NCBI RefSeq assembly: GCF_936916975.1
Contig: NZ_CAKZGO010000003.1
Span: 1 to 64,000 of the forward strand
Source: an uncultured Dongia sp.
GTDB taxonomy: Bacteria; Pseudomonadota; Alphaproteobacteria; Dongiales; Dongiaceae
Length of the DNA stretch: 64,000 bases
Direction: 5' to 3'
Position 1 is the first letter of the stretch; each line of letters begins with the position of its first letter. The translations under genes and the position numbers were made by a program. This document shows, piece after piece, positions 21,793 through 35,458 of this stretch. The notes under the pieces were generated by a model that saw nothing but the letters and a program-made list of their open reading frames with translations, was not told where the DNA came from and searched no databases.

Positions 21793-22092
21793 GACAGGCG
21801 TTTTTGAGCAATCTCGGGCATTAATGCGACCGCGTGTCATCAAACACGCGCACCAAAGTTCACTCGGCTAGTTGTCCCATTGAATTATAAGGAAAATTAT
21901 TAACATAGGTCAGTCAACCCTCATATAGTTGAGGGATTCTGACATAAATTCCACATTTTTTGACCATCTTCTGTCAATTTCCATGCTCATTCACACGCTC
22001 GCGCACATGGTGCGCATCCATCTTCCGGCCACCCCGAGCGACCCGCCCTGCTGCGGCCAGCCGGTTTTTTGGACAGGAAGATGGAGTTACCG
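21793..22092. other. 300-bp AT-rich intergenic region with a long imperfect palindrome
   Basis: No gene is visible. The segment 21870-21965 is much more AT-rich than its surroundings and probably holds the promoter of the DUF1127 gene. Within it, 21909-21943 forms nested arms: GTCAG (21909-21913) with CTGAC (21939-21943) outside, and CCCTCA (21918-21923) with TGAGGG (21930-21935) inside. A T6 run follows shortly after. A second small hairpin, CGCGTGT/ACACGCG at 21831-21850, may be the weak end of the LacI transcript. Confidence 0.5.
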
Positions 22093-22317
22093 ATGTTCTC
22101 GAACATCACCACCAGACCAGCGGACGCCGTTCATCCGGTGATCCGGGCGGCGGATGCCATCCGCGCCCTCATAACGCGGATGGTCAGGTACCAGGCGGAA
22201 CGTCGCGCCATTCACGCGGTGACGGCGTTGTCCGACCACATGCTGAAAGACCTTGGCATCGGCCGATCGCAGATCGTCCGAACGATCCGCCACGGCCGCT
22301 TCGATCACGACTGCTGA
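22093..22317 (+). CDS. Small DUF1127 (YjiS-like) protein
   Basis: A 74-residue basic protein. Its C-terminal half, RRAIHAVTALSDHMLKDLGIGRSQIVRTIRHGRF, is a clear DUF1127 domain (Arg-rich, with the L.DIGI/LGIGRS core). Some alphaproteobacterial DUF1127 proteins are small regulators linked to phosphate, RNA turnover or stress; no role can be fixed here. I chose the ATG at 22093 because GGAG lies 6 nt upstream; an ATG at 22081 is an alternative. It is 33 nt before the diiron-protein gene and probably co-transcribed with it. Confidence 0.78.
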   Translation: MFSNITTRPADAVHPVIRAADAIRALITRMVRYQAERRAIHAVTALSDHMLKDLGIGRSQIVRTIRHGRFDHDC

Positions 22318-22350
22318 CCCAACGATAGAACCCAGACAGAGGAATGCATC

Positions 22351-23265
22351 ATGCTGACCCATAGCTACAACTACAAAGAAACGCTGGCCAACGCGCAGAA
22401 GATCAACTGGCGTATCGAAGACATCATCGGCGGCGACCGGCAGCTCGATTTCTCGCGGCCCTTCATGCCCGAAGCGATCGCACGGACCGAACCGCTGGCC
22501 TTTCTGAAACCGGCGGAGCGCGTGGTTCTCAACCAGATCCGCGGCTATGGCTATCTGTCGACCTTTGGTCTGTCGGAAGAATTTATCCTGCCTTTCATCA
22601 TGGACCATGCCCGCCAGGTCGTGAGCGGCGATGACTGGCAGATTCGCGCCCTGCTGCAATTCGCCGGCGAGGAAGCCAAGCATATCCATCTCTTCAAGCG
22701 CTTCTGCGCCGAGTTCGAGGACGGGTTTGGCACCGATTGCCAGATCATCGGGCCGGCCGAGGATATCGCCAAGGCGATCCTGGCGCATCCGCCGCTCGCC
22801 GTGGCCCTGCTCATTCTTCACATCGAATGGATGACGCAGTCGCATTACCTCGACAGCGTCAAGGATGACCGTGACCTCGATACGCAGTTCAAGAGCCTGC
22901 TGCGGCACCATTGGATGGAAGAAGCGCAGCATGCCAAGCTCGACACGATGATCGTCCAGCATCTGGCAATGCAAACCGACGCTGCCGGCATTGCCGAAGC
23001 AATCGACGGTTACATGGCCATCGGCGCCTTCCTGGACGCTGGTCTTGAGCAGCAATCGAAGTTCGATCTCGACAGCTTCCAGGCCGCGACCGGCCGCCGT
23101 CTCAGCAATGATGAGTGCCACACCTTCCTTGGTGTCCAGCATCAGGCATTGCGCTGGACGTTCATCGGATCGGGCATGACACATCCTAATTTCCTCACGA
23201 CCCTCGGCCAGTTGTCGCCGGACGGCCGCAAGAAGATCCAGGAAGTGGCCCCGACATTCTGTTAA
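22351..23265 (+). CDS. Ferritin-like diiron protein (AurF-like, function unknown)
   Basis: A 304-residue, mostly helical soluble protein. The diiron pattern is complete: Glu76/Glu77 (SEEFI), Glu108-x2-His111 (EEAKH), Glu159 (HIEW) and Glu191-x2-His194 (EEAQH). This is the E...ExxH...E...ExxH arrangement of ferritin-like oxidases and oxygenases, including the p-aminobenzoate N-oxygenase type. It has no signal peptide and no ferritin-cage length or sequence. An oxygenase or oxidase role is inferred from the metal site alone. It follows the DUF1127 gene closely and precedes two large regulators. An uncharacterised member of a large superfamily is the safe description. Confidence 0.7.
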   Translation: MLTHSYNYKETLANAQKINWRIEDIIGGDRQLDFSRPFMPEAIARTEPLAFLKPAERVVLNQIRGYGYLSTFGLSEEFILPFIMDHARQVVSGDDWQIRALLQFAGEEAKHIHLFKRFCAEFEDGFGTDCQIIGPAEDIAKAILAHPPLAVALLILHIEWMTQSHYLDSVKDDRDLDTQFKSLLRHHWMEEAQHAKLDTMIVQHLAMQTDAAGIAEAIDGYMAIGAFLDAGLEQQSKFDLDSFQAATGRRLSNDECHTFLGVQHQALRWTFIGSGMTHPNFLTTLGQLSPDGRKKIQEVAPTFC

Positions 23266-23309
23266 CGGACCAAGCCGGGGGGTGGCAGTGCTGCTCCCTG
23301 GTCAGGTTC

Positions 23310-23335
23310 CCAGGCCGCATCCCCAGGCCGCATCC
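23310..23335. repeat. Perfect 13-bp tandem duplication
   Basis: CCAGGCCGCATCC occurs twice in direct succession (23310-23322 and 23323-23335) in the roughly 200-bp gap between the diiron-protein gene and the large regulator. Two copies of 13 bp are most simply a replication-slippage duplication. Nothing else stands out in the gap. Confidence 0.8.
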
Positions 23336-23474
23336 TTTGCGTCTTGGCCATTCGATCCAGTATTGCCTCGCTAGAAGTTAACGCCGAGGGGCTATACCGG
23401 GACCGCGCGCTAGCCTCTGCAGAACGGAAGCGCTGCCGGCGGCAAAATCCAATCGCCGCCACATGGGAAGAGAC

Positions 23475-26400
23475 ATGACGCCCCAGCCGGAATCCGGCAT
23501 GATCGGAGGGGTGCGTCATGTGATCGGGAAGGGCAGCCCGTTGACTGAGGTCCAGGCAGATACCCAACCGCGTCTCCGCCTGTTGGGCGAGGTCGCGCTG
23601 TTTCGTCACGGCGCGTTCGTCGCCCTGCCACCGTCGAAGAAAACGCGGGCGCTGCTGGCCTATCTTGCCGCAACCGCACGACCGCATCGGCGCGATCGAT
23701 TATGCACGCTGTTCTGGGACATCCCGGATGACCCCCGAGGATCGCTGCGCTGGAGCCTCAGCCGTCTGCGGCCATTGCTCGATGATGCCGATTGCCAACG
23801 TATCCAGGCCGACCGCGAGAGCGTGTCGCTCGCTCTCTCATCGCTCACGGTCGACCTCGATATCGTCGAGCGGGCACTGGCGCGGGAAAATTGCCCGATC
23901 GGCGATCTTGCCGCTGCCGCTGATCTGTTCGAGGGGGAGTTCGCAGAAGGCCTCGATCTCCACGGCTGTCCCGACTTCCAGGTCTGGCTGACCATCCAGC
24001 GCGAGGCGGTACGTCGCCTGCATCTCCAACTCCTGCAGAAGCTGGTCGAAGGACTACCGGCTGGTGAGGCATTGCCTTTTGCCCAGCGACGGTTGGAGAT
24101 TGATCCCGACAGTACCGAACATCATCGCGATCTCCTCACCCTGCTCGTGGCCGCTGGTCGTCGCCACGAGGCGGAGCAGCAGGTCGCCCTATCCATCGAT
24201 CGGATCGCGACGATCGATGGACCGGCGGCCGAAGCCCTGGCGCTGCATTGGCGCAAACTGCAGCAGCCCGCGCAGAGCAAGGCAGACAGGACGTCGCGGC
24301 CCCTCATCCTTGCCGGCGAAATACAGATTGATGCAGAGCCGGATTGGCCGGAAGAGCGCAAGCAGGTCACCGTGCTGCATGTCAATCTGCGCGACGAATC
24401 GCTGGTCGACGATCCGGAAATTGCCGCCAGCCGGCTGGATCCGTTCGTCTCCAGCATGATCGCGGCGGTCGAACGCTATGGCGGCGTGGTCACGCAACGC
24501 AGGCCCGAAGGGATCACCGCCTTGTTCGGGGCGCCAGCTGCCAGTGAGAACCATCCGACGCGCGCATGCCTCGCAGCCCTTGCCATCCAGGGGGCTTGTG
24601 CCGGCGCCATGATCGGCATCGCGGTTCACGCTGGCGAAGTCGTGGCGCGCAGCCAGAAGGGACGGGTTGAGGCCTTCGGTCCCGCCCTCAAGATCGCCGA
24701 GGAAATCGAGCGGGTGACGCCGGTCCACATGATCTATCTGGGGCGTCAGACCTTTCGGCTGGTCGAGGGCATGTTCCTCGGCGAGCCCTGCGATGCGCTG
24801 AGCCTTCCGGGTTTCAACGAACCGATTGAGCTGCTGTCGCTGACCGGACAGGCCGCCATGGCGGGCGGCTGGTATGCACGCGTGATACGTGGCCTCACCG
24901 CCTTCGCCGGGCGACAACACGAATTGGCCAACCTGTTGCGCGTGGCCGATAAAGCGCGCGCCGGAAAGGGGCAAGTGGCGGTCGTGGTCGGTGAGCCGGG
25001 TCTCGGCAAATCACGCCTGTTGCATGAACTGATGCAGCATGACGCCTTCCAGCCCGCGATTTGGCGACAGTTGGAAGGCGCCGCCACACCTTACGATATC
25101 GATACGCCCTATTTCTTGATCGGCCGTGTGCTGCGCTTCTGGCTGCAGATCACGAGGCCGCTGCCGGAAGCGGCAGTCCGCGCGCGGCTTCACACGGCCT
25201 TGATGATGCTTGATCCGGCCTTGACCTGGGTGGAGCCGGCCCTGGGTGTGCCGTTGGACCTGCCGGCCGATGCGGCATGGAACGCGCTCGATGCCAGTGT
25301 GCGCCGCCGCCAGATTACCGATGCCGTCGACACCGTCATCAACGCCCTGGTTGCCAAGCAACCCGTGGTTCTGCTGATTGAGGATTTACACTGGGCCGAT
25401 GCCGAGAGCGCCTCGATCATCGAAACACTGGTTAATCATCTGGCGCGGCGGCGCGTGCTACTGCTCGTGACGGCACGGCCTGAAGGTGCGCCGGGCTGGA
25501 TGGCAAAGGGCGTTTGCCATCCGCTGCGCCTCACCTCGCTTGACGACCTGTCGGCCGAGCAGATGACCGAGGCGCTGCTGGGCGACGACACCTCGCTTGC
25601 AGATCTCAAGCGCCGGCTGGTGCAGCGAACAGCAGGAACGCCGCTGTTCCTGGAGGAAGTCGTCAACACACTCGTAGAATCCGGCAGTTTGATCGGCAAA
25701 CGTGGCGCCTATCGGATGGCCCAGGTGCAGAACGAACTCAGTCTCCCTGCAACAATTCAGGCCGTGCTGGGCGAGCGCATTGATCGGCTGCCGAAGCCGC
25801 TCAAGATGCTTCTTCAGGTCGCCGCTGTGATTGGCGAGGATGTGCCGGTCGACATTCTGTTGCCGTTGATGGAGTTGCCGGCGGATGGTCTCGCCACACA
25901 GCTTGAGGCGTTGCAGGAGGCTGAGCTCCTGTTCGAAAACGAGCCGCCACCACGGCGCCGTTTCGCCTTCAAGCACGCGCTCATACGCGATGTTGCCTAT
26001 GCCAGCCTGCTCGTCGCGCAACGCCGCAAGCTGCATCGCCGGCTATTGAAGATCATCCTGCCCAAGGAGCGCCAGCGCCGCGAGGCGATGATCGAGCGCC
26101 TGGCGCATCATGCGGCACATGCGGAAAGGTGGAGCCTGGCGGCCAAATTCCTGCGCCAGGCCGGCGACAAGAGCGTACGCCGTTCCGCCTATCATGAAGC
26201 TGTCCGTTCTTATGAAGCGGCGCTGCAGATGCTGTCGCACCTACCGTCGACATCGGCCACGCAACTGTTCTCGGCGATCGTGCGGTTGCGACTGCGGCCA
26301 CCGCTCGGCGCGATCACCGCCTTTACACGGGCCTTCGAGCATCTGGAGGTTGCCGAGCAGATTGTCGAGGCACGCGGCGATATTCAGCGGATGATCGCCA

Positions 26401-27365
26401 TAGCCATACACAAAAGCTACATCTTGAGCTCGCAAGGGAAAATTGAAGCGGCGCTGGAAGCCGCTGGGCGGGCCTGCTCGTTGTCCCAGAACACCACCGA
26501 TCCGTTATGGCAGATGGAGTCGCATTTGGCATTTGGGCAGGCCTGTGCTTTCCGTGGCGATATCGCCGGCGTGTTGGAAGCGGTCAGCCCGCTCCGCGCC
26601 CGGCTGACCACGGAATTTCGCCATGAGAGAATGGGGCAAACCGGCTTGCGATCAGTCTGGTGCCTCATGCATCTGGCTGATGCGATGACGTTGAAGGGCG
26701 ATCTTGCGGAGGCACGGCTGCTTACGCAGGAGGCAATGGTCATCGCCGAAGAAGCGAACAAGCCCTATGACCGGGCAGTCGTACATATACGCGACGGATT
26801 CATCCAATTGCAGGACGCCAATCCACAAAAAGCTGTGGCTGCGTTCGATCGCGCACGCGCACTTGCCGAAGGCAGCGATCTGGGTTGGGTGGCGGCATGG
26901 GCCCGTACCGGCCTTGGCTACGCTTATGTCTTGAGCGGCCATGCCGAGGCTGGGCTGCATCTGCTGGCAGCGACCAAGCGCCAGGCGATTGAGGCCGAGT
27001 TCCCGTCGGTCGAAGCGATGAGCGCCGTCTATCTTGCCGATTCGCGGCGGCGTTGTGGCCAATGGCGCGCGGCGGCCGAGGAGGCCGAAATCGCTCTGGC
27101 GACGGCGCGGCGCTGGGGTTACTGGGATATCGAGGTGATGGCCCTTTTATGTCTGGGACAAGCAACACGGCATCTGGATGAATCTGGTGCGACTGCCATG
27201 ACCTATCTGAATGAGGTCATCGTTCTGGCACGGAGCAGGGGCTATCGCTTGATGCTGGCCGAGGCGCATCAGTCGATGGCGCCTATTCTGGAAATGCACG
27301 GCGACATGCAGGGTGCTGCAGCAGCGGTCAGTCTTGCAGACGGGCTGCTGCGATTGGAAAACTGA
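23475..27365 (+). CDS. Very large SARP/BTAD - cyclase-like - AAA ATPase - TPR signalling protein
   Basis: A protein of about 1,296 residues. Residues ~20-260 form a transcription-activator-like N terminus and bacterial transcriptional activation domain (LRLLGEVALFRHGAFVALPPS, SLRWSLSRLRPLL). Residues ~290-420 resemble a class III adenylate cyclase, but the two metal-binding Asp positions read VNL and PEG instead of the usual Asp-containing motifs, so catalysis is unlikely. A STAND-type AAA ATPase follows, with Walker A GEPGLGKS (~residue 510) and Walker B VLLIEDLHWAD (~635). Residues ~880-1290 are helical TPR-like repeats. The ATG at 23475 follows GGAAGAG; an ATG at 23463 is possible. Such proteins are ATP-driven signal-sensing regulators. 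Its target may be the flanking diiron or monooxygenase genes. Confidence 0.82.
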   Translation: MTPQPESGMIGGVRHVIGKGSPLTEVQADTQPRLRLLGEVALFRHGAFVALPPSKKTRALLAYLAATARPHRRDRLCTLFWDIPDDPRGSLRWSLSRLRPLLDDADCQRIQADRESVSLALSSLTVDLDIVERALARENCPIGDLAAAADLFEGEFAEGLDLHGCPDFQVWLTIQREAVRRLHLQLLQKLVEGLPAGEALPFAQRRLEIDPDSTEHHRDLLTLLVAAGRRHEAEQQVALSIDRIATIDGPAAEALALHWRKLQQPAQSKADRTSRPLILAGEIQIDAEPDWPEERKQVTVLHVNLRDESLVDDPEIAASRLDPFVSSMIAAVERYGGVVTQRRPEGITALFGAPAASENHPTRACLAALAIQGACAGAMIGIAVHAGEVVARSQKGRVEAFGPALKIAEEIERVTPVHMIYLGRQTFRLVEGMFLGEPCDALSLPGFNEPIELLSLTGQAAMAGGWYARVIRGLTAFAGRQHELANLLRVADKARAGKGQVAVVVGEPGLGKSRLLHELMQHDAFQPAIWRQLEGAATPYDIDTPYFLIGRVLRFWLQITRPLPEAAVRARLHTALMMLDPALTWVEPALGVPLDLPADAAWNALDASVRRRQITDAVDTVINALVAKQPVVLLIEDLHWADAESASIIETLVNHLARRRVLLLVTARPEGAPGWMAKGVCHPLRLTSLDDLSAEQMTEALLGDDTSLADLKRRLVQRTAGTPLFLEEVVNTLVESGSLIGKRGAYRMAQVQNELSLPATIQAVLGERIDRLPKPLKMLLQVAAVIGEDVPVDILLPLMELPADGLATQLEALQEAELLFENEPPPRRRFAFKHALIRDVAYASLLVAQRRKLHRRLLKIILPKERQRREAMIERLAHHAAHAERWSLAAKFLRQAGDKSVRRSAYHEAVRSYEAALQMLSHLPSTSATQLFSAIVRLRLRPPLGAITAFTRAFEHLEVAEQIVEARGDIQRMIAIAIHKSYILSSQGKIEAALEAAGRACSLSQNTTDPLWQMESHLAFGQACAFRGDIAGVLEAVSPLRARLTTEFRHERMGQTGLRSVWCLMHLADAMTLKGDLAEARLLTQEAMVIAEEANKPYDRAVVHIRDGFIQLQDANPQKAVAAFDRARALAEGSDLGWVAAWARTGLGYAYVLSGHAEAGLHLLAATKRQAIEAEFPSVEAMSAVYLADSRRRCGQWRAAAEEAEIALATARRWGYWDIEVMALLCLGQATRHLDESGATAMTYLNEVIVLARSRGYRLMLAEAHQSMAPILEMHGDMQGAAAAVSLADGLLRLEN

Positions 27366-27537
27366 CTGCCGTCAGTCCTCAGTGAGCATTCCGCTCCACA
27401 GCGGGACGGTTCGATGGCAGCGTCATGCATAGCCCAGCCAGCGGAGCCCGACAAAGAGGGAGCTTGTTCGATTCACAGAAATTGTTACTTTCGTTGCAGA
27501 ACGCGCGGACGATCATTTTTGCTGATGTAAGGTGGCC

Positions 27538-29301
27538 ATGAGCTTCAGACTCACTGAACGCATTCGAAGTCTCGGGCACATCGCCAATCTGATAAATGCC
27601 GGGCATGAACTGAGTGAGGTGCTCAATCTCATCGTGACTGCCGTCTGCCAGCGATCTTCATGGTCCAGCAGTGCCATCATGGCGGCGGACGAGAATGTCG
27701 ACCTCTCCGTTCTGGTTGCACGTTTTGATCCCCTGTTCCAGATCGGCCGAAACACCGTCGACACCTGGACTCTTTCAACCAGCCCCACGCGATCAGTCCT
27801 CGGCAATCGCCGCCCACTCGTCATCGAAGATGCACAACAAAGTGCTGATTTTCCCGGATACCGGCTTGAGGCGGTCGAACGCGACTATCACACCGTTGTC
27901 CTCCTTCCATTCAGCACCGTCGATGAAATGGACCGCGGCCTCGTGCTCTCCGTGCATGCGCATGAGCGACGCGATGTCGACGAGGAAGAAATGGCCTTTC
28001 TGGAAACAGTCGCACTGTTGGGTTCGCTGGCCGTCGAGAAAGCGCGCCGCACCAGCCTTGACAGCTCTCAGAGACTCCAGCTGCGTGCCGCCCTCGATAT
28101 TTCGCAGATTGCAATGGACCATGTACTGACGACCGAAGATGTCGAGGGCTTCACCGAGCTCGCGCAACAACATCTGAAGATCCCGTTCCTGTTTCTCGAT
28201 TTCGTGACCAATCGCGTGCATTTAGGATCCGGCGCCAAGCTTCCGGCGAAAGTCACCCAACAATCGCTCGTCAGAACCTTGCGAGATCGCTTGCGCCGGG
28301 CAGACGCCCGGCAATTCGATCTCGTGGACGCCGTACAACTGGGCACGGCTGCGTCCGATAAGCAGCAATCGATGATCGTCGAACCCTGCATTGCTGCGGG
28401 CAGTGTTCTTGGCGGCATTGCTTTGCTGACAGATCGCCCTTTGGTCGCCGCCGCCGCCTTGACAGCCCAGCAATTGCGCGCGGCATTGACCGTCCTCTTG
28501 CTACGTCAGCATATCCGCTTCGACGTGGAGGCAGAGACTCACGGCGCTTTCTTTGCCCGTCTGTTCTCAGCCGATTGGCGGGATCACGCCGCCATGCTGG
28601 CGCGGGCCCACCGCCTCAATCTCGCCCTTGATGAACCCGGCCGCCTCGCCGCGATCAGCTTGCGCGCTGCCGGCGACAAGACCAGCGACATCGAGCATGC
28701 GGTCGTCCGCGAACTGCGTCGGCTGATGCCGGGCGGGAGCGCCTTCCGCGACCGCGATGCGATTATCATCTTCATGCCTGAGCGCCATTCAGGCGGCGCT
28801 GCTGCCCGCCAAACGTTGGACCAGCTCCTGCGTGAAGTGGAATGGCTGACGCGTGCCGCACCGCTCGCCTGCCTCGGGCAGGTTTGCGATCGATTGGAGG
28901 ATTACTCGCCTGCCCGCCGGCAACTCGAAACGCTTCTCGCTTTGGCCGAAAAATTGGGGCGCACCGGCATCACCGAGACAGCCGATTTCGGGCCTCTCGC
29001 CCGGCTCGTGGCCCTCGCGGATTCTGAGGGACTACGGGATTTCGTCAGCGAAATCGTCGGCCGCATCGAACAGTACGATGCCGAGCATGACGGCGACTTC
29101 ATTCTGACCCTGGAGCAATATTTGGCCAATCGCACGCGCCTGCAGGCGACGGCTGGGGCTCTCGGAATACACGTCACCACTTTGCGCTACCGGTTGCAGC
29201 GCATCGCCGAGCTTTTCGACGTCGACCTCGACGAACAGGAAACCCGGCTCGGACTGGAATTGGCCTTGCGGGTCCGGCGCCTCCTTGGCCAGCATGGGTG
29301 A
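27538..29301 (+). CDS. GAF-domain PucR/CdaR-family transcriptional regulator
   Basis: A 587-residue regulator. The N-terminal ~170 residues look like a GAF sensory domain (VLLPFSTVDEMDRGLVLSVHAH). The middle has the CdaR GGDEF-like region. The C terminus, starting about residue 515, is the PucR helix-turn-helix: TLEQYLANRTRLQATAGALG followed by HVTTLRYRLQRIAELF. PucR-type proteins usually activate catabolic operons for purines, phenolics or other N- or aromatic compounds. The ATG at 27538 is preferred over the GTG at 27532. It lies 116 bp upstream of the flavin reductase operon in the same direction, so that operon is its likeliest target, perhaps through the palindromes at 29309-29359. The 172-bp gap upstream holds nothing recognisable. 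Confidence 0.84.
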   Translation: MSFRLTERIRSLGHIANLINAGHELSEVLNLIVTAVCQRSSWSSSAIMAADENVDLSVLVARFDPLFQIGRNTVDTWTLSTSPTRSVLGNRRPLVIEDAQQSADFPGYRLEAVERDYHTVVLLPFSTVDEMDRGLVLSVHAHERRDVDEEEMAFLETVALLGSLAVEKARRTSLDSSQRLQLRAALDISQIAMDHVLTTEDVEGFTELAQQHLKIPFLFLDFVTNRVHLGSGAKLPAKVTQQSLVRTLRDRLRRADARQFDLVDAVQLGTAASDKQQSMIVEPCIAAGSVLGGIALLTDRPLVAAAALTAQQLRAALTVLLLRQHIRFDVEAETHGAFFARLFSADWRDHAAMLARAHRLNLALDEPGRLAAISLRAAGDKTSDIEHAVVRELRRLMPGGSAFRDRDAIIIFMPERHSGGAAARQTLDQLLREVEWLTRAAPLACLGQVCDRLEDYSPARRQLETLLALAEKLGRTGITETADFGPLARLVALADSEGLRDFVSEIVGRIEQYDAEHDGDFILTLEQYLANRTRLQATAGALGIHVTTLRYRLQRIAELFDVDLDEQETRLGLELALRVRRLLGQHG

Positions 29302-29308
29302 AAAGCCT

Positions 29309-29359
29309 ACTATGTTTCATAGTATATAATATTGCGTACTTCCTATTTTAAATAGGAAG
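29309..29359. promoter_or_regulatory. Two perfect palindromes in the promoter of the monooxygenase operon
   Basis: ACTATG-TTT-CATAGT (29309-29323) is a perfect inverted repeat with a 3-nt centre. Sixteen bp further on, CTTCCTATTT (29339-29348) pairs exactly with AAATAGGAAG (29350-29359) across one base. The whole segment is AT-rich and lies 58-109 bp upstream of the flavin reductase ATG. The centres are 33 bp apart, about three helical turns. These are strong operator candidates; the adjacent PucR-type regulator is the obvious binder, but this is inference. Low GC in the arms argues against a terminator. Confidence 0.65.
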
Positions 29360-29417
29360 ACCGCCCCCTCTTGCACCTACATCCTCGGCCCGACACGACG
29401 ATCAGGGGCGATAGGAT

Positions 29418-29942
29418 ATGGCAGCAACTACCACGGCCGAAGCAGTAGATGCTGCGTCCGCTAGACACGCCATCGAGCCGCGGGCCTTGCGCCAGGCATT
29501 CGGCTGTTTCGCCACCGGCGTCACCATCGTGACCGCCTGCGACGAACTCGGCCAGCCGCGCGGTATGACGGCGAATTCCTTCACCTCGGTCTCCCTGACA
29601 CCTCCCCTCATTCTCGTTTGCGTCGCCACCGACGCGCCGATCTGGCCCACCTTCGCCACCGCCGAGGCGTTTGCCGTGAACGTCTTGGCCGACGGTCAGC
29701 AAGCACTGTCACAAGGTTTCGCGCGTCCGGCACCGGACAAATTCGCTGGGGTCGACTGGCAACCCGGTGGCCTCGGCGCGCCCATCCTTGGCGGTGTCGC
29801 CGCCCATCTTGAATGCCGGCGGGTGCGTGAAATCACGGCGGGCGACCACATGATCCTGCTCGGCGAGGTCATGGGCTTTGCACATGCCCCAGCCCTTCCG
29901 CTCATTTTCCACCGCGGCGGCTATGCCGCTTTGGCGCACTAA
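29418..29942 (+). CDS. NAD(P)H:flavin reductase of a two-component monooxygenase
   Basis: A 174-residue member of the flavin reductase-like (HpaC/RutF) family, which supplies reduced FMN or FAD to a partner oxygenase. The core is clear: LRQAFGCFATGVTIVTA, GMTANSFTSVSLTPPLILVCV, FAVNVLADGQ and the terminal HLECRRVREITAGDHMILLGEV with PLIFHRGGY. A poorly conserved tail of about 20 residues precedes the domain. It is the first gene of a rightward operon, followed 27 nt later by the luciferase-like monooxygenase it presumably serves. Confidence 0.9.
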   Translation: MAATTTAEAVDAASARHAIEPRALRQAFGCFATGVTIVTACDELGQPRGMTANSFTSVSLTPPLILVCVATDAPIWPTFATAEAFAVNVLADGQQALSQGFARPAPDKFAGVDWQPGGLGAPILGGVAAHLECRRVREITAGDHMILLGEVMGFAHAPALPLIFHRGGYAALAH

Positions 29943-29969
29943 TCCCTTTCGAACAAGGATGCTTCCAAC

Positions 29970-31046
29970 ATGAAATTCAGCCTCGCCATAAACTTCGAGC
30001 GCATGAGCCCCACTACCGACATGCGCGATGTCGCCAGGCACACGCTGGAAATGGTGCAATTGGCGGAAACCGGCGGGTTCGAAATTGCTTGGGCGGCGGA
30101 GCACCATGCCATTGAGATGACGATCGCGCCCAATCCCTTTCAGCAGCTGACCTGGTGGGGCCAGCATACAAACCGGATTCGACTGGGCCTTGCCGTCGCC
30201 GTCGCCGCCTACTGGCACCCGATCCGCCTCGCCGGTGAAGCCGCCATGTGCGACCTGCTGACCGATGGCCGCCTCGAATTCGGCATCGGCTGCGGCGCCT
30301 ATCAACGCGAGTTTGATCGCATGGCGGGTGGTCTCAAGGCGCAGGAAAGCGTGCCCTATATGCTGGAAATGCTGCCGCTGCTGAAGCAGCTGTGGCAAGG
30401 CGACGTCGAGCATCACGGCAAGTTCTGGTCGTTCCCAAAGGCCACTGCCTGTCCGAAGCCGCTGCAGAAGCCCTATCCGTCGATCTGGGCTGCCGTCCGC
30501 AACCCGGTGTCATTCGATTGGGCGGTCGCGAACGACCTCAACGTGATGACCTGGGCGTTGACCAGGGAGTTTGCCGAGGTCGAACTTTACATGCAGCGGT
30601 TCCATGACTCGCTGGCCAAGGCGCCGGCCGGCACACGCCGGCCACGTTTCTCGACCATGCGCCACACCGGCGTCTACGGCACGCAGCAAGAGGCAGAGTT
30701 GTACGTCAACTCCCTGAAGCGGGTCGCCGGTCAGTTTGAAAACCTGTTCCGCGGCGATGGCGGGGTGGATAACGGCTTCCCCTCCGAAGTCGAGTTGGCC
30801 AGCCTCGATAACCGGGCCGAATACGACAGCAAGATGCTGCAGACCAATCTGATGTTCGGCACCCCGGACCAGATCATCGACAAGCTGCAGCGCTATGAAA
30901 CGCTCGGCGTCGACAATTTCATTTACTACGCGACCTATGGCTTGCCCATGGCGCAGCAACGCAAGTCATTAAAGCTCTTCGTCGACGAGGTCATGCCCGC
31001 CTTCGCCGACAAATCTCCCAAACGCGCCCTTGCCGGTGCCAGCTGA
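29970..31046 (+). CDS. Luciferase-like flavin-dependent monooxygenase
   Basis: A 358-residue bacterial luciferase-family (LLM) barrel protein that should use reduced flavin and O2 to oxygenate an organic substrate. Family marks are GGFEIAWAAEHH near the N terminus, RIRLGLAVAVAAYWHPIRLA, LLTDGRLEFGIGCGAYQREFDRM, and the C-terminal GTPDQIIDKLQRYETLGVDNF. It is the catalytic half of a two-component system with the flavin reductase just upstream. The substrate is not readable from the sequence. The operon order resembles the rut pyrimidine pathway in having an LLM oxygenase, a flavin reductase and an alpha/beta hydrolase, but ring-specific rut genes such as rutB and rutC are missing. Confidence 0.88.
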   Translation: MKFSLAINFERMSPTTDMRDVARHTLEMVQLAETGGFEIAWAAEHHAIEMTIAPNPFQQLTWWGQHTNRIRLGLAVAVAAYWHPIRLAGEAAMCDLLTDGRLEFGIGCGAYQREFDRMAGGLKAQESVPYMLEMLPLLKQLWQGDVEHHGKFWSFPKATACPKPLQKPYPSIWAAVRNPVSFDWAVANDLNVMTWALTREFAEVELYMQRFHDSLAKAPAGTRRPRFSTMRHTGVYGTQQEAELYVNSLKRVAGQFENLFRGDGGVDNGFPSEVELASLDNRAEYDSKMLQTNLMFGTPDQIIDKLQRYETLGVDNFIYYATYGLPMAQQRKSLKLFVDEVMPAFADKSPKRALAGAS

Positions 31047-31101
31047 GAGATCGGCGACATGAGATGACGCGATATACCGCCCACCAAGGAAAGACCGCCC
31101 G

Positions 31102-31695
31102 ATGCCGATAGAGATCCGCAAGATCGTCACCTACCAGGAAGACGTTTTCATCGAAGGCGGAAAGGCCGGCGCGCGCCCCGTCCGCATGGTGGCGGTGGCA
31201 GCCATCGTCAACAATCCCTGGGTTGGCCAAGGTTTCGTCGACAATTTGCGCCCGGAACTTCTGGCGGCTGCCCCGATTCTGGGTGCTGCCATAGTGCCGA
31301 TCATTCTGGAACGCTGCGGCGGGGGCGACCGTGTCGAAGCCTATGGCAAGGCCGCAATCGTTGGCACATCGGGCGAAGTGGAACATGCATCGGCGCTCAT
31401 ACACACCCTGCGCTTCGGCAACGTTTTTCGCGAGGCCGTCGGCGGCACGTCCTATCTCAGCTTCACCAACAAGCGTGGTGCACCAGGTTGCGCCATCGCC
31501 GTGCCGATGATGCACAAGCTCGACGAAGGGGCACGGTCACATTACCTGACTGTCGAATTCACCATCAATGACGCGCCGGCGCCGGATGAGATCGTCGTGG
31601 CGCTTGGTGCCAGCACAGGTGGCCGGTTGCATCCGCGCATTGGCAATCGCTATATCGATAAGGCCGAGATCGACGCCGAGAAGGTCGTCGGCTGA
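31102..31695 (+). CDS. DUF1185 / amino acid synthesis family protein
   Basis: A 197-residue cytoplasmic protein of the PF06684-type family named amino acid synthesis protein. The family's real activity is not known to me. Recognisable segments are EIRKIVTYQEDVFIEGG, VAAIVNNPWVG, EAYGKAAIVGTSGEVEHASALIH and the closing GGRLHPRIGNR. Members are often found beside luciferase-like oxygenases and amide-handling genes, as here. GAAAG precedes the start by 8 nt, and the stop overlaps the next start by one base, implying coupling. A role in processing the monooxygenase product is inferred from context only. Confidence 0.82.
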   Translation: MPIEIRKIVTYQEDVFIEGGKAGARPVRMVAVAAIVNNPWVGQGFVDNLRPELLAAAPILGAAIVPIILERCGGGDRVEAYGKAAIVGTSGEVEHASALIHTLRFGNVFREAVGGTSYLSFTNKRGAPGCAIAVPMMHKLDEGARSHYLTVEFTINDAPAPDEIVVALGASTGGRLHPRIGNRYIDKAEIDAEKVVG

Positions 31696-32516
31696 TGCCC
31701 GTGATCGATCAGATCCTTGCAGACGGCACGCATCTCCGCTTGGAAGGCACCGGTCGGCCGCTGGTCCTCATCCACGGCGTCGGCATGGATCTGACGATGT
31801 GGGATTGCCTGTCGGCTCAGCTGACCGATTTCCAAGTGATTCGATACGACATGATCGGTCACGGCAGCAGCCCGAAGCCCGCCGGCCCGTATTACCTGGA
31901 GGAGTATGTCGATCAACTCCTGCGCCTTGCCCATGCGTTGCATCTGAAGAAGTTCAACCTCTTGGGCTTCTCCATGGGTGGCTTGGTCGCTCAGGGTTTC
32001 GCCGTGCAGCATGGCCACCTGCTAGACCGCCTGTTCCTACTCAATACGGTCTATCGCCGATCGGCAGATGAACGCGCTGCCATCGCCCGGCGCGTGATCG
32101 ACGTGGGAAATGGTGGCTACCCGGCCAGTGTCGAGGCCGCGATCGAGCGCTGGTTCACGCCGACCTTCCTGCAAGACAATGCCGATGTTGTGGAAAACGT
32201 GCGCCGACATTTGCTCGACAACGATCTCGCCGCCTACGCCGCCGCCTATCAGGTTTTCGCCACCGCCGATGCGGAGCTGGCCGATATCGTGGCGAACATA
32301 ACCGCGCCGACACTGGTCATGACCGGCAGTGACGACCAACGCTCGACTGTCGCCATGGCGGAGGCGCTGGCCGCATGCATGCCACGAGCGCAGGCCTCTG
32401 TCATCGCCGGGCAAAGGCATCTGACGCCGATCGAATGTCCCGACGAAATCGCTGCGCGCGTCCGCGCCTACCAGGCGCTAGCCCATCCTATGCAAGGCGG
32501 GTCGCAACATGGCTGA
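31695..32516 (+). CDS. Alpha/beta hydrolase
   Basis: A 273-residue alpha/beta-fold hydrolase. The oxyanion-hole motif is LIHGVGMD (HG at ~27-28). The nucleophile elbow is LGFSMGG with Ser93. The acid is likely an Asp in TGSDDQRS and the base is the His in AGQRHLTPIECPDEI. The general form resembles 3-oxoadipate enol-lactonase and RutD-like enzymes, so ester, lactone or carbamate cleavage is plausible. The preceding gene's stop shares a base with this start, and the next gene overlaps the end by 8 nt, so it belongs to a tightly coupled operon. Confidence 0.87.
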   Translation: MPVIDQILADGTHLRLEGTGRPLVLIHGVGMDLTMWDCLSAQLTDFQVIRYDMIGHGSSPKPAGPYYLEEYVDQLLRLAHALHLKKFNLLGFSMGGLVAQGFAVQHGHLLDRLFLLNTVYRRSADERAAIARRVIDVGNGGYPASVEAAIERWFTPTFLQDNADVVENVRRHLLDNDLAAYAAAYQVFATADAELADIVANITAPTLVMTGSDDQRSTVAMAEALAACMPRAQASVIAGQRHLTPIECPDEIAARVRAYQALAHPMQGGSQHG

Positions 32517-33993
32517 AATTCGCAGCTATCAGATGTTCATCGACGGCGCGTGGTCCGAAGCTGCAGACGGCGCTTTGCTGGATAGCATTAATCCGGCAAC
32601 CGGAAAGGTATGGTGCCGCTTTCCAGCAGCCACATCAAGCGATGTCGACCGCGCGGTTGAGGCAGCGCACCGCGCCATGGCGGTTGGACCTTGGGCCACG
32701 ATGACAGCGACCGCCCGCGGCAAGCTGCTGCGGCGCCTTGCTGATCTTCTAGCAGAGCGGGCCGATCGGTTGGCGGAGGTTGAAACCACCGATACCGGCA
32801 AGCTCATTCGCGAGACGCGAGCGCAGATCCGCTATGTCGCCGACTACTTCCACTATTTTGCCGGCGCTGCGGACAAGCTCGAAGGCTCGACGCTGCCGAT
32901 CGACAAGAACGACATGTTTGTCATGACGGTGCGCGAACCGATCGGTGTCGTCGCGGCGATCGTGCCCTGGAATTCCCAGCTCATGCTGGCCGCGGTCAAG
33001 ATCGGGCCGGCTTTGGCGGCGGGCAATGCCGTCGTCTTGAAAGCCTCCGAACATGGGCCGGCACCGCTGCTGGAACTGGCACAGCTCTGCGCCGATGCCG
33101 GCTTCCCTGCTGGTGTTGTCAATGTGGTGACCGGGTTGGGCGATCCCTGTGGTGCGCGCTTGACACAGCACCCACTGGTCGCACGCATCGCCTTTACCGG
33201 TGGGCCCGCCACCGCCCGCCATGTTGTGCGCAACAGCGCCGAGAACTTTGCCACCGTCACGCTGGAACTGGGCGGCAAGTCACCCATCGTCGTGTTTGAC
33301 GATTGCGACATAGAAAGCGCTGTGAACGGCATTGTCGCCGGCAATTTCGGCGCCTCGGGGCAAAGCTGCGTCGCCGGCTCGCGTGTCATCATTCAATCCG
33401 GGGTGTTCGACGAGGTGACCGCCCGCGTCGCCGAGCGAGCCGGTCGGATTCGTATCGGCGATCCCCAGGATGCGGCAACCGAGATGGGGCCATTAGCCAC
33501 GAAGGCGCAGCTCGATCATGTCGAAGCTGTTCTGGCGCGGTCGCTGGCCGGCGGGGCGACACTCATGGGCGGTGGCAATCGCCCCCAAGGCTTCGCCCAG
33601 GGCTGGTATTTCGAACCGACCATCCTCCTTTGCCCGCATCCCGATATTGCCTCGGCCCGCGAAGAATTGTTCGGGCCAGTCCTCAGCGCGCTCCGTTTTG
33701 AGACTGAAGCTGATGCGGTCCGGCTGGCCAATGACACGGCTTACGGCCTCGCTGCCGGAATCTTCACCCGAGACGGCGCACGCAGCCTGCGCATGATGCG
33801 GCAGATCCGGGCAGGCATCATTTGGATCAATACCTATCGCGCGGTTTCGCCGATGGCGCCCTTCGGCGGTTATGGCCAAAGCGGTGCCGGGCGGGAGGCG
33901 GGCTTCGAAAGCCTGCTCGACTATTCGCGGACAAAAACAGTCTGGATCAACACCGGCTCGGCGCCGATGGGCGATCCGTTCGCAATGCGCTGA
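32509..33993 (+). CDS. NAD(P)-dependent aldehyde dehydrogenase
   Basis: A 494-residue aldehyde dehydrogenase of the betaine/gamma-aminobutyraldehyde-type group. The cofactor region has VVAAIVPWNSQLM, followed by the catalytic Glu in TLELGGKSP (~253) and catalytic Cys287 in GASGQSCVAG. EELFGPVL and PFGGYGQSGAGREAG complete the family pattern. It should oxidise an aldehyde released in the monooxygenase pathway to an acid. It is unlikely to be the missing uronate-pathway semialdehyde dehydrogenase, because it is locked into this operon (8-nt overlap with the hydrolase gene). The exact aldehyde is unknown. Confidence 0.9.
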   Translation: MAEIRSYQMFIDGAWSEAADGALLDSINPATGKVWCRFPAATSSDVDRAVEAAHRAMAVGPWATMTATARGKLLRRLADLLAERADRLAEVETTDTGKLIRETRAQIRYVADYFHYFAGAADKLEGSTLPIDKNDMFVMTVREPIGVVAAIVPWNSQLMLAAVKIGPALAAGNAVVLKASEHGPAPLLELAQLCADAGFPAGVVNVVTGLGDPCGARLTQHPLVARIAFTGGPATARHVVRNSAENFATVTLELGGKSPIVVFDDCDIESAVNGIVAGNFGASGQSCVAGSRVIIQSGVFDEVTARVAERAGRIRIGDPQDAATEMGPLATKAQLDHVEAVLARSLAGGATLMGGGNRPQGFAQGWYFEPTILLCPHPDIASAREELFGPVLSALRFETEADAVRLANDTAYGLAAGIFTRDGARSLRMMRQIRAGIIWINTYRAVSPMAPFGGYGQSGAGREAGFESLLDYSRTKTVWINTGSAPMGDPFAMR

Positions 33994-34006
33994 CGGAAAG
34001 ATGACC

Positions 34007-34321
34007 ATGATCTATGAGCATCGCACCTATCGGCTGAAAAACGGCAGCGCCGGCGAGTATCTGCAGCTGGTGGGTGGCGAAGGCATCGCGATCCAGCGCC
34101 GCCACCTTGGCCAACTCGTCGGCTACTTCACCACCGAGATCGGACCGCTCAACGAAATCACGCATATCTGGGCCTATGCCGATCTGGCGGACAGGGACCG
34201 CCGCCGCGCGGCCTTGTTGACCGATCCGGAATGGCTCGCTTTCCTGCCGAAGATCCAGGTCCTGATCGAGGAAGGAACCAACAAGATCCTGAAACCGGCT
34301 CCGTTCTCTCCTTTGGCTTAG
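34007..34321 (+). CDS. NIPSNAP-family small protein
   Basis: A 104-residue dimeric alpha/beta-barrel type protein. The N-terminal MIYEHRTYRLKNGSAGEYL and the HIWAYADLADRDRRRAALL region are typical of bacterial NIPSNAP proteins, which often accompany catabolic enzymes but have no settled function. I chose the ATG at 34007, 6 nt after GGAAAG; an ATG at 34001 is too close to it. It follows the aldehyde dehydrogenase by 13 nt and precedes the ABC importer by 93 nt. Confidence 0.82.
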   Translation: MIYEHRTYRLKNGSAGEYLQLVGGEGIAIQRRHLGQLVGYFTTEIGPLNEITHIWAYADLADRDRRRAALLTDPEWLAFLPKIQVLIEEGTNKILKPAPFSPLA

Positions 34322-34414
34322 CGGCCGGCGATTCGTCACGGATTGCAGTGATCTCGGGGCGCTGCAGTTCAAAAACAAAAACCCTGAAAATCGCCAATAT
34401 GGGAGGCTAGAGAA

Positions 34415-35458
34415 ATGATTTCGCGTAGAAGGTTGCTCGGAACGACGGGCTTGGGTCTTGGCGCATTGACCCTGGGCAGTGCATTGCCGGCGTCTCGCTT
34501 GCTGGCGGCTCAGGAAATCACTTTTGTGAGCTGGGGTGGGACGACGCAGGACGCCCAGAAGGCTTCCTGGGCGGATCCGTTTACCGGCACCACGGGCATG
34601 AATGTTCTGCAGGATGGGCCGACCGATTATGGCAAGCTGAAAGCCATGGTCGATGCCGGCAATTCGGTGTGGGATGTCGTCGATGTCGAGGGCGACTACG
34701 CCTTCCAGGCGGCGGAGTTGGGCCTGCTCGAGCCGATCGATTACTCGATCGTGAAAAAGGATACGCTCGATCCGCGCTTTTCTTTCGATCACGGCGTGGG
34801 CAGCTTCTACTACTCCTTCGTGCTTGGCTTTAACAAGGACTCGACGGGTGGCAAGACACCCGAAGGCTGGGCGGCGATCTTCGACACAGCGAAATTCCCC
34901 GGCAAGCGATCGTTCTGGAAATGGTCGAGCCCGGGTGTCCTGGAAATGGCCTTGTTGGCCGATGGCGTACCGGCCGACAAGCTCTACCCGTTGGATCTCG
35001 ACCGTGCCTTTGCCAAGCTGGATACGATCAAGAAGGATATCTTGTGGTGGGCGAGCGGTGCGGAATCGCAGCAGCAGCTTGCGTCGGGTGAAGTCGCGCT
35101 TGGCAGCTTCTGGAACGGCCGCATGTTTGCACTGAACCAGTCTGGCGCCAATGTCGGCACGTCCTGGGCGCAGAACATGGCGCTGGCCGACATCCTGGTT
35201 GTTCCGAAGGGTGCCAAGAACAAGGACGCCGCGATGAAATTCATCGCCCAGGCCAGCAGCCCGGAAGGACAAGCCGCTCTGGCGGTCGCAACGGCCTATG
35301 CACCAGTCAACACGGCGGCTATCCCGCTCCTGAGCAAGGACATGATCGCCATGTTGCCCTCGGAGCATACCGACAGCCAGATCACGCTCGATATGAAGTA
35401 TTGGGCCAGCAATCGCGATAAGATTGGTGAACGCTGGTACGCTTGGCAATCGGCGTAA
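34415..35458 (+). CDS. Spermidine/putrescine-type ABC transporter substrate-binding protein
   Basis: A 347-residue periplasmic receptor of the PotD-like group. The N terminus MISRRRLLG followed by a hydrophobic stretch is a twin-arginine-like signal, with cleavage near LLAAQ. The mature part has ITFVSWGGTTQDAQ, WDVVDVEGDYAFQAAELGLLEPID and the late AMKFIAQASSPEGQAALA. A GGAGG site precedes the ATG. It begins the transport half of the monooxygenase operon, so the ligand is probably that pathway's substrate, likely a polar or cationic N-compound. A strong stem-loop lies just after the gene. Confidence 0.87.
   Translation: MISRRRLLGTTGLGLGALTLGSALPASRLLAAQEITFVSWGGTTQDAQKASWADPFTGTTGMNVLQDGPTDYGKLKAMVDAGNSVWDVVDVEGDYAFQAAELGLLEPIDYSIVKKDTLDPRFSFDHGVGSFYYSFVLGFNKDSTGGKTPEGWAAIFDTAKFPGKRSFWKWSSPGVLEMALLADGVPADKLYPLDLDRAFAKLDTIKKDILWWASGAESQQQLASGEVALGSFWNGRMFALNQSGANVGTSWAQNMALADILVVPKGAKNKDAAMKFIAQASSPEGQAALAVATAYAPVNTAAIPLLSKDMIAMLPSEHTDSQITLDMKYWASNRDKIGERWYAWQSA

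Follow-up and report, generated by a model that had tools for sequence, protein, structure and literature searches.

A predicted SARP-STAND regulator and 12-bp direct-repeat operator at a DUF1127-diiron operon of an uncultured Dongia sp.

The giant SARP-STAND protein encoded downstream of an AurF/CmlI-fold diiron protein in an uncultured Dongia sp. is very probably the regulator of the DUF1127-diiron operon, acting through an operator that was predicted from sequence. This operator, which consists of 12-bp direct repeats and is common to the diiron loci with a SARP, also in distant bacterial relatives and with exchangeable sensor parts, is new here. An orphan diiron family of many phyla is now tied to a concrete switch, consisting of the regulator, its predicted operator and the promoter. 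No paper uniting the diiron family, the regulator and the 12-bp operator was found in the open-licence literature, a scope that does not prove absence.

Results

Organization of the locus

The genome (5.48 Mb, 47 contigs) was represented by a stretch of 64,000 nucleotides (i.e. positions 1 to 64,000 of contig NZ_CAKZGO010000003.1), hereafter referred to as the window. The closest named relative among the matches was Dongia mobilis, with 87% identity in the diiron protein. An ORF check of the window found four consecutive ORFs on the + strand (Table 1), in the order described by an earlier interpretation made from the DNA letters (i.e. the sequence-only reading). The DUF1127 assignment of that reading was confirmed by a Pfam score above cut-off and an in-frame ATG at 22093; the ORF spans 22069-22317, with possible earlier starts at 22069 and 22081. 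The DUF1127 gene is separated from the start of the diiron gene by 33 nt and is likewise found 5' of the diiron gene in D. mobilis. In sphingomonads, the place held by DUF1127 in Dongia is taken by a 35-50 aa ORF with a single hydrophobic stretch, located 18-32 nt 5' of the diiron gene, at loci of the SARP and AraC types alike (L061, L063, L065, L066, L069, L071, L073, L078 and L081).

Table 1. Features of the DUF1127-diiron locus and its flanks, in window coordinates.
Feature	Position	Strand	Basis
Predicted SARP operator, two strong 12-bp direct repeats ATTTCCATGCTC / ATTCACACGCTC	21977..22000	+	Matrix score
Weak third repeat GCGCACATGGTG	22001..22012	+	In register
Possible -10 element CATCTT, 6 bp past third repeat	22019..22024	+	Recurrence in L020 and L057
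DUF1127 small protein	22093..22317	+	PF06568, 39.2 bits vs cut-off 23.3
AurF/CmlI-fold diiron protein, 304 aa	22351..23265	+	AlphaFold2 model, ligand set
SARP - degenerate cyclase - AAA_16/STAND - TPR-like regulator, 1300 aa	23463..27365	+	AAA_16, 70.4 bits
SARP DNA-binding domain (winged helix + BTAD)	23553..24317	+	Fold, profile
Class III cyclase-like domain, predicted catalytically dead	24354..24842 (boundaries approximate)	+	Lost residues
AAA_16/STAND ATPase, Walker A GEPGLGKS	24903..25463	+	PF13191, residues 481-667, E 3.4e-19
GAF-PucR protein	27532..29301	+	HTH_30, GGDEF_2, GAF_2 (Pfam)

The diiron protein

An AlphaFold2 model of the diiron protein (pLDDT 96) exhibited CmlI/AurF as its top structural match (Z 19.6, 266-275 residues aligned), followed by the NrdF/R2 family (Z 16.5; about 16 for both R2 of ribonucleotide reductase and R2lox). 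In Foldseek, R2lox and AurF were comparable by E-value and the TM-score was higher for AurF (0.66). Residues E76, E108, H111, E159, H187, E191 and H194 were invariant in an alignment of 56 homologues, and the resulting ligand order (i.e. E, ExxH, E, HxxxExxH) is the 3-His/4-Glu set of AurF. In DnfA, an enzyme of the AurF superfamily that acts on hydroxylamine, the ligands are Glu88, Glu123, His126, Glu182, His209, Glu213 and His216, with an identical order in AurF and CmlI (PMC9478400). The sequence-only reading had proposed a ferritin-like protein with an E...ExxH...E...ExxH site; all of these residues are present and invariant and the diiron site is complete, but the equally invariant H187 had been overlooked and the best match is CmlI/AurF, not a generic ferritin.

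The score of the diiron protein against PF11583 (22.9 bits) fell under the gathering cut-off of 29.6, and 51 of the 56 homologues matched this family at E 0.01 or better. As identity to AurF/CmlI was only 10-14% in structure alignments and a search of PDB sequences with the diiron profile gave nothing significant, the protein is a distant, separate family within the AurF/CmlI superfamily and not AurF proper. Proteins 50-65% identical to it were found in Proteobacteria, Acidobacteria, Planctomycetes, Myxococcota and other groups, but the spread is patchy, as only 17 of the 143 related genomes that were searched had a family member. Its fold and its full set of ligands plausibly mark the protein as an O2-activating enzyme, leaving the oxygenase idea of the sequence-only reading plausible also, and O2-dependent oxidation is likely to be its chemistry.

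A predicted 12-bp direct-repeat operator

Direct repeats were first noticed in the intergenic regions of SARP-type loci, and an operator matrix was trained on 13 loci of other genera, none from Dongia. The repeat unit in these loci was WTTCMMACGCY, with 18 neighbouring pairs at 12-bp spacing and one at 11. Since published SARP repeats stand 11 or 22 bp apart (PMC10936776), a spacing that is a common SARP feature and no defining criterion, the 12-bp spacing marks a variant among SARP operators. Applied blind to both strands of the window, the matrix gave its best pair at 21977-22000 (24.3 bits; runner-up 16.3), approximately 70-90 bp 5' of the DUF1127-diiron operon. Inclusion of the third repeat reduced the score to 22.5 for the triple, as compared to Markov-simulated maxima of 8.4-16.7, and D. 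mobilis holds a near-identical sequence at this repeat. The best site of D. mobilis was at the homologous place (28.8 vs 13.5 for the next), and all other held-out SARP loci (L010, L011/L057, L012/L064, L020, L042, L055 and L061) scored 18.7-27.4. Scores for the 22 AraC-classified diiron loci were 14.9 or lower. Three of the 51 other loci exceeded 20 bits (i.e. L003, L019 and L022); L003 duplicates D. mobilis, and the SARP of L019 sits just past the end of this short locus and is visible in L175. At L061, the SARP gene is inserted between the diiron and OsmC genes and the operator lies between SARP and OsmC.

A consensus pattern had its only 0-mismatch match in the 5.48-Mb genome at 21977-22000; this pattern combined the matrix with both Dongia sites, i.e. 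it was made with knowledge of the site, and the informative part is therefore that there were zero other perfect matches. A second genomic candidate (C22:43578; 2 mismatches, 18.1 bits) was rejected as a probable chance match inside a coding region. The candidate -10 hexamer recurs, similarly spaced, in L020 and L057, with similar hexamers in L010 and L019; for published SARPs the -10 element is 8 bp from the 3' repeat (PMC10936776).

The SARP-STAND protein and its clade

The N-terminal SARP domain (255 residues) was modelled by AlphaFold2 with a pLDDT of 94 and matched AfsR (Z 19.0) and EmbR (Z 17.9), with the next unrelated chain at 9.6. A profile of the domain matched EmbR and AfsR across its entire length; Pfam BTAD gave no match in the window protein and matched the relatives L049 and L051. 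The AAA_16 score was well over its cut-off of 32.6 bits with an intact Walker A motif, and the TPR_MalT match was weak (21.7 bits vs cut-off 45). In the cyclase-like domain the first metal Asp is replaced by Asn, the GD motif by PEG and the substrate-site Asn by Lys, and the domain is degenerate in L020 and L055 too. Active cyclase signalling by the giant protein was rejected on account of these lost metal- and substrate-binding residues. The SARP/cyclase-like/AAA/TPR composition named in the sequence-only reading was hence upheld for the SARP part by fold and for the ATPase by its Pfam score, weakly for the TPR part, and for the cyclase solely as a degenerate domain. Domain order is the same in L020 (66% identity) and L055 (35%), and in D. 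mobilis and Azospirillum canadense a protein of the same architecture is encoded next to the diiron gene. Other STAND proteins are encoded in the same genome.

In phylogenetic analysis, a long branch (length 0.99, support 100/100) set 20 diiron-locus SARP domains and two others apart from 12 generic SARPs encoded in related genomes. Both non-diiron SARPs within the clade carry the operator (23.7 and 27.8 bits), and none was found near the 12 generic SARPs (maximum 12.6 bits). Six clade members with short flanks (L174, L177, L180 and L182-L184) had no site within about 1.5 kb.

The operator was also found at loci with other genes. In G017 (L153), it precedes genes for a methyltransferase, a truncated haemoglobin and a class III cyclase, without a diiron gene; in G110 and G030, it precedes a methyltransferase (65-66% identical). 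Loci L034, L021, L026, L053 and others have a related methyltransferase gene close to the diiron gene, and a truncated haemoglobin and class III cyclase adjoin it in L020 and L097. A recurring pair is formed by a truncated haemoglobin gene and, immediately downstream, a class III cyclase gene whose N-terminal region is conserved (L153, L020:11020-12410 and L097). The shared operator and neighbours suggest that diiron, OsmC, methyltransferase and haemoglobin-cyclase genes form one functional set, of which lineages hold specific subsets. We propose, tentatively and as something that may well prove wrong, that a single clade of SARPs, with a 12-bp-repeat operator of its own and joined to exchangeable sensors (i.e. 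STAND, TPR, alpha/beta hydrolase or dead cyclase), governs a chemical-defence regulon not described before. Its members would be the AurF-like diiron oxygenase, the one-cysteine OsmC, the class I methyltransferase and the truncated haemoglobin-cyclase pair, with different subsets kept by different lineages. Searches of this genome found no close relative of OsmC and none of the D. mobilis haemoglobin-cyclase pair, and both were rejected on these grounds as missing partners encoded elsewhere in the genome.

Neighbourhoods of the diiron gene

The sequence-only reading had made the randomness of diiron neighbourhoods across genomes a test of its proposal. The test did not refute the proposal: these neighbourhoods were non-random, with OsmC, SARP and AraC genes enriched at specific positions. 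In counts that are approximate and probably too low (genes of foreign loci came from a home-made caller, with opposite-strand shadows and over-long starts), and with partial redundancy among the 93-96 loci (several short loci, L003-L012, duplicate longer ones), an OsmC gene was present at +1 in 33/93 loci for which a downstream gene was called, as compared to three OsmC matches over all other offsets, and regulators were present at -1 (SARP, 14/94; AraC, 18/94) and almost never farther away. Pfam tallies concurred (OsmC in 33 of 78 downstream proteins; Cupin_6 AraC in 15 of 72 upstream proteins).

A single-chain regulator usually adjoins the diiron gene, often divergently; the window SARP gene is downstream on the same strand, whereas most other loci are divergent. 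The regulator types were SARP-alpha/beta hydrolase, SARP-AAA-TPR, SARP-TPR, AraC-Cupin_6 with or without hydrolase, and sigma54-AAA-TPR, together with winged helix-hydrolase fusions recognised by sequence. Among diiron-adjacent regulators of the SARP, AraC and winged-helix types, the fused alpha/beta hydrolase domains were mostly 52-63% identical (34-44% for one AraC fusion). This likeness is unspecific, because regulators at loci without a diiron gene reach 51-60%, and a conserved hydrolase sensor was thus rejected as proof of a common ligand.

Several further arrangements were observed. Diiron-adjoining OsmC proteins (L063:10938-11501 and others) keep the first cysteine (NAC) and have a Ser/Thr-rich TSPNYFN later, as in a one-cysteine subfamily; in Ohr/OsmC proteins, the resolving cysteine is expected where the partner OsmC has TSPNYFN. 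An unusual enhancer-binding/STAND fusion, in which a sigma54-activator is joined to AAA_16 and TPR, is divergent from the diiron gene at L082:3434-7669 and L089:5531-9763. In Acidobacteria and Planctomycetes, the diiron gene may adjoin PF07638-type ECF sigma factors or Ser/Thr kinase-TPR proteins (L028:2449-3060, L059, L048 and L052). One AraC-Cupin_6 regulator (L074:6999-9695) contains two tandem alpha/beta hydrolase domains that are ~40% alike.

The GAF-PucR gene

Pfam matches to HTH_30, GGDEF_2 and GAF_2 agreed with the GAF-PucR domains assigned in the sequence-only reading. In five relatives (L164-L168), the PucR gene adjoins a luciferase-like monooxygenase, usually with flavin reductase, AA_synth, alpha/beta hydrolase and aldehyde dehydrogenase genes, and no diiron gene; neither in D. 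mobilis nor at the remaining loci did PucR adjoin the diiron gene. PucR was rejected as part of the diiron system since it heads this separate conserved cluster. The proposal that both neighbouring regulators control the diiron gene was accordingly supported for the giant STAND protein, with its common operator and kept neighbourhood, but not for GAF-PucR. The catabolic cluster of the window, kept in several relatives, spans 27532-35458 and comprises the genes for PucR, flavin reductase, luciferase-like monooxygenase, AA_synth (PF06684), alpha/beta hydrolase and aldehyde dehydrogenase, as well as those at 33935 and 34415.

Discussion

Proposed mechanism and alternatives

The locus may be viewed as a two-part unit, i.e. 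the DUF1127-diiron operon and a single-chain regulator gene directly after it. A chemical or redox signal might be taken in by the TPR part, the dead cyclase or both, which is a guess. The STAND ATPase would then leave an inhibited state for an ATP-bound one, as has been described for AfsR (PMC10936776); from the published architecture of AfsR, its ATP switch and its activation of its own target we infer the switch and activation in the giant protein. Freed SARP domains would sit side by side on the repeats at 21977-22000 and would recruit RNA polymerase to the DUF1127-diiron promoter, producing activation rather than repression. The diiron enzyme would spend O2 and two electrons on a small molecule; an amine or other nitrogen compound is our best guess at the substrate, and detoxification or signalling at the role. 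Taken as a whole, a signal-switched SARP-STAND protein that activates the DUF1127-diiron genes and an enzyme that oxidises a small molecule with O2 are rather likely, slightly less so than the oxidation considered by itself.

The regulator could control the operon while the diiron protein is no oxygenase but a redox protein (i.e. a scavenger of peroxide, NO or O2, or a metal-linked sensor) that takes part, along with OsmC and truncated haemoglobin, in a stress response. In favour of this, OsmC is the gene most often found downstream (33/93), truncated haemoglobin and class III cyclase genes adjoin the diiron gene in L020 and L097 and the same operator, without a diiron gene, in L153, and DnfA of the AurF superfamily works on hydroxylamine (PMC9478400). 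This explanation is given about one chance in four, as the complete AurF-type ligand set, with its extra histidine, is known from O2-activating, substrate-oxygenating enzymes, and as the partners vary by lineage and shared neighbourhoods say little about chemistry.

Two other explanations concern the regulators. The adjacency could be incidental and the SARP-STAND protein could control something else, given that SARP, STAND and cyclase-domain proteins are numerous and that this genome has other STAND proteins; the held-out operator test, the sole perfect genomic match, the clade specificity of the operator and the position-specific enrichment of neighbours render this improbable. Even less probable is a single system of all four genes with PucR as second controller of the diiron enzyme: the genes share a strand with small gaps and no strong terminator-like site separates them (7 found vs 6.0 expected in shuffles), but PucR belongs to the monooxygenase cluster of L164-L168 and is missing beside the diiron gene elsewhere. 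Control of the DUF1127-diiron operon by the SARP-STAND protein is thus the preferred reading. Points that weigh against it are the downstream, same-strand position of the SARP gene, the weak third repeat, the clade members that lack a site, the missing OsmC and haemoglobin-cyclase relatives in this genome and, for the enzyme, its distance from AurF/CmlI in score and identity. Because one SARP DNA-binding clade is fused to several unrelated sensors, comparison of the ligands of these sensors could reveal the diiron substrate. SARP regulators with a predicted 12-bp operator occur, moreover, outside antibiotic clusters.

Comparison with known systems

The giant protein resembles AfsR of Streptomyces coelicolor, a large SARP (SARP-NOD-TPR), in its SARP fold (Z 19.0), its STAND ATPase and a predicted direct-repeat operator close to the target promoter, and probably in the weakly detected TPR-like repeats at its C-terminus. 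It differs from AfsR in an additional degenerate cyclase domain between SARP and ATPase, in repeats that are 12 bp and not 11 or 22 bp apart, in having one predicted target, an enzyme operon, and in its alphaproteobacterial host. EmbR of Mycobacterium tuberculosis has the same SARP-type winged helix and BTAD (Z 17.9); its C-terminus is an FHA domain, whereas the SARPs here carry STAND, TPR or alpha/beta hydrolase sensors. The cyclase-AAA-TPR part matched the TOMM kinase/cyclase fusion protein (TIGR03903) with an E of 3.9e-68, but at 230 bits vs a cut-off of 705.75, and the giant protein lacks the kinase, has a SARP domain instead and has lost the cyclase residues.

The diiron protein shares its fold (Z 19.6) and length (~300 aa) with the AurF/CmlI arylamine N-oxygenases (PF11583, which also includes the hydroxylamine oxidase DnfA and AzoC), and the 3-His/4-carboxylate ligands are in the same order in AurF, CmlI and DnfA. 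It differs from AurF/CmlI in its 10-14% identity and in a score under the Pfam cut-off, and, unlike AurF, CmlI and DnfA, is encoded outside an antibiotic cluster and outside a dnf cluster. In contrast to AurF/CmlI, the partners of the diiron family are regulators and OsmC or methyltransferase genes, across many phyla.
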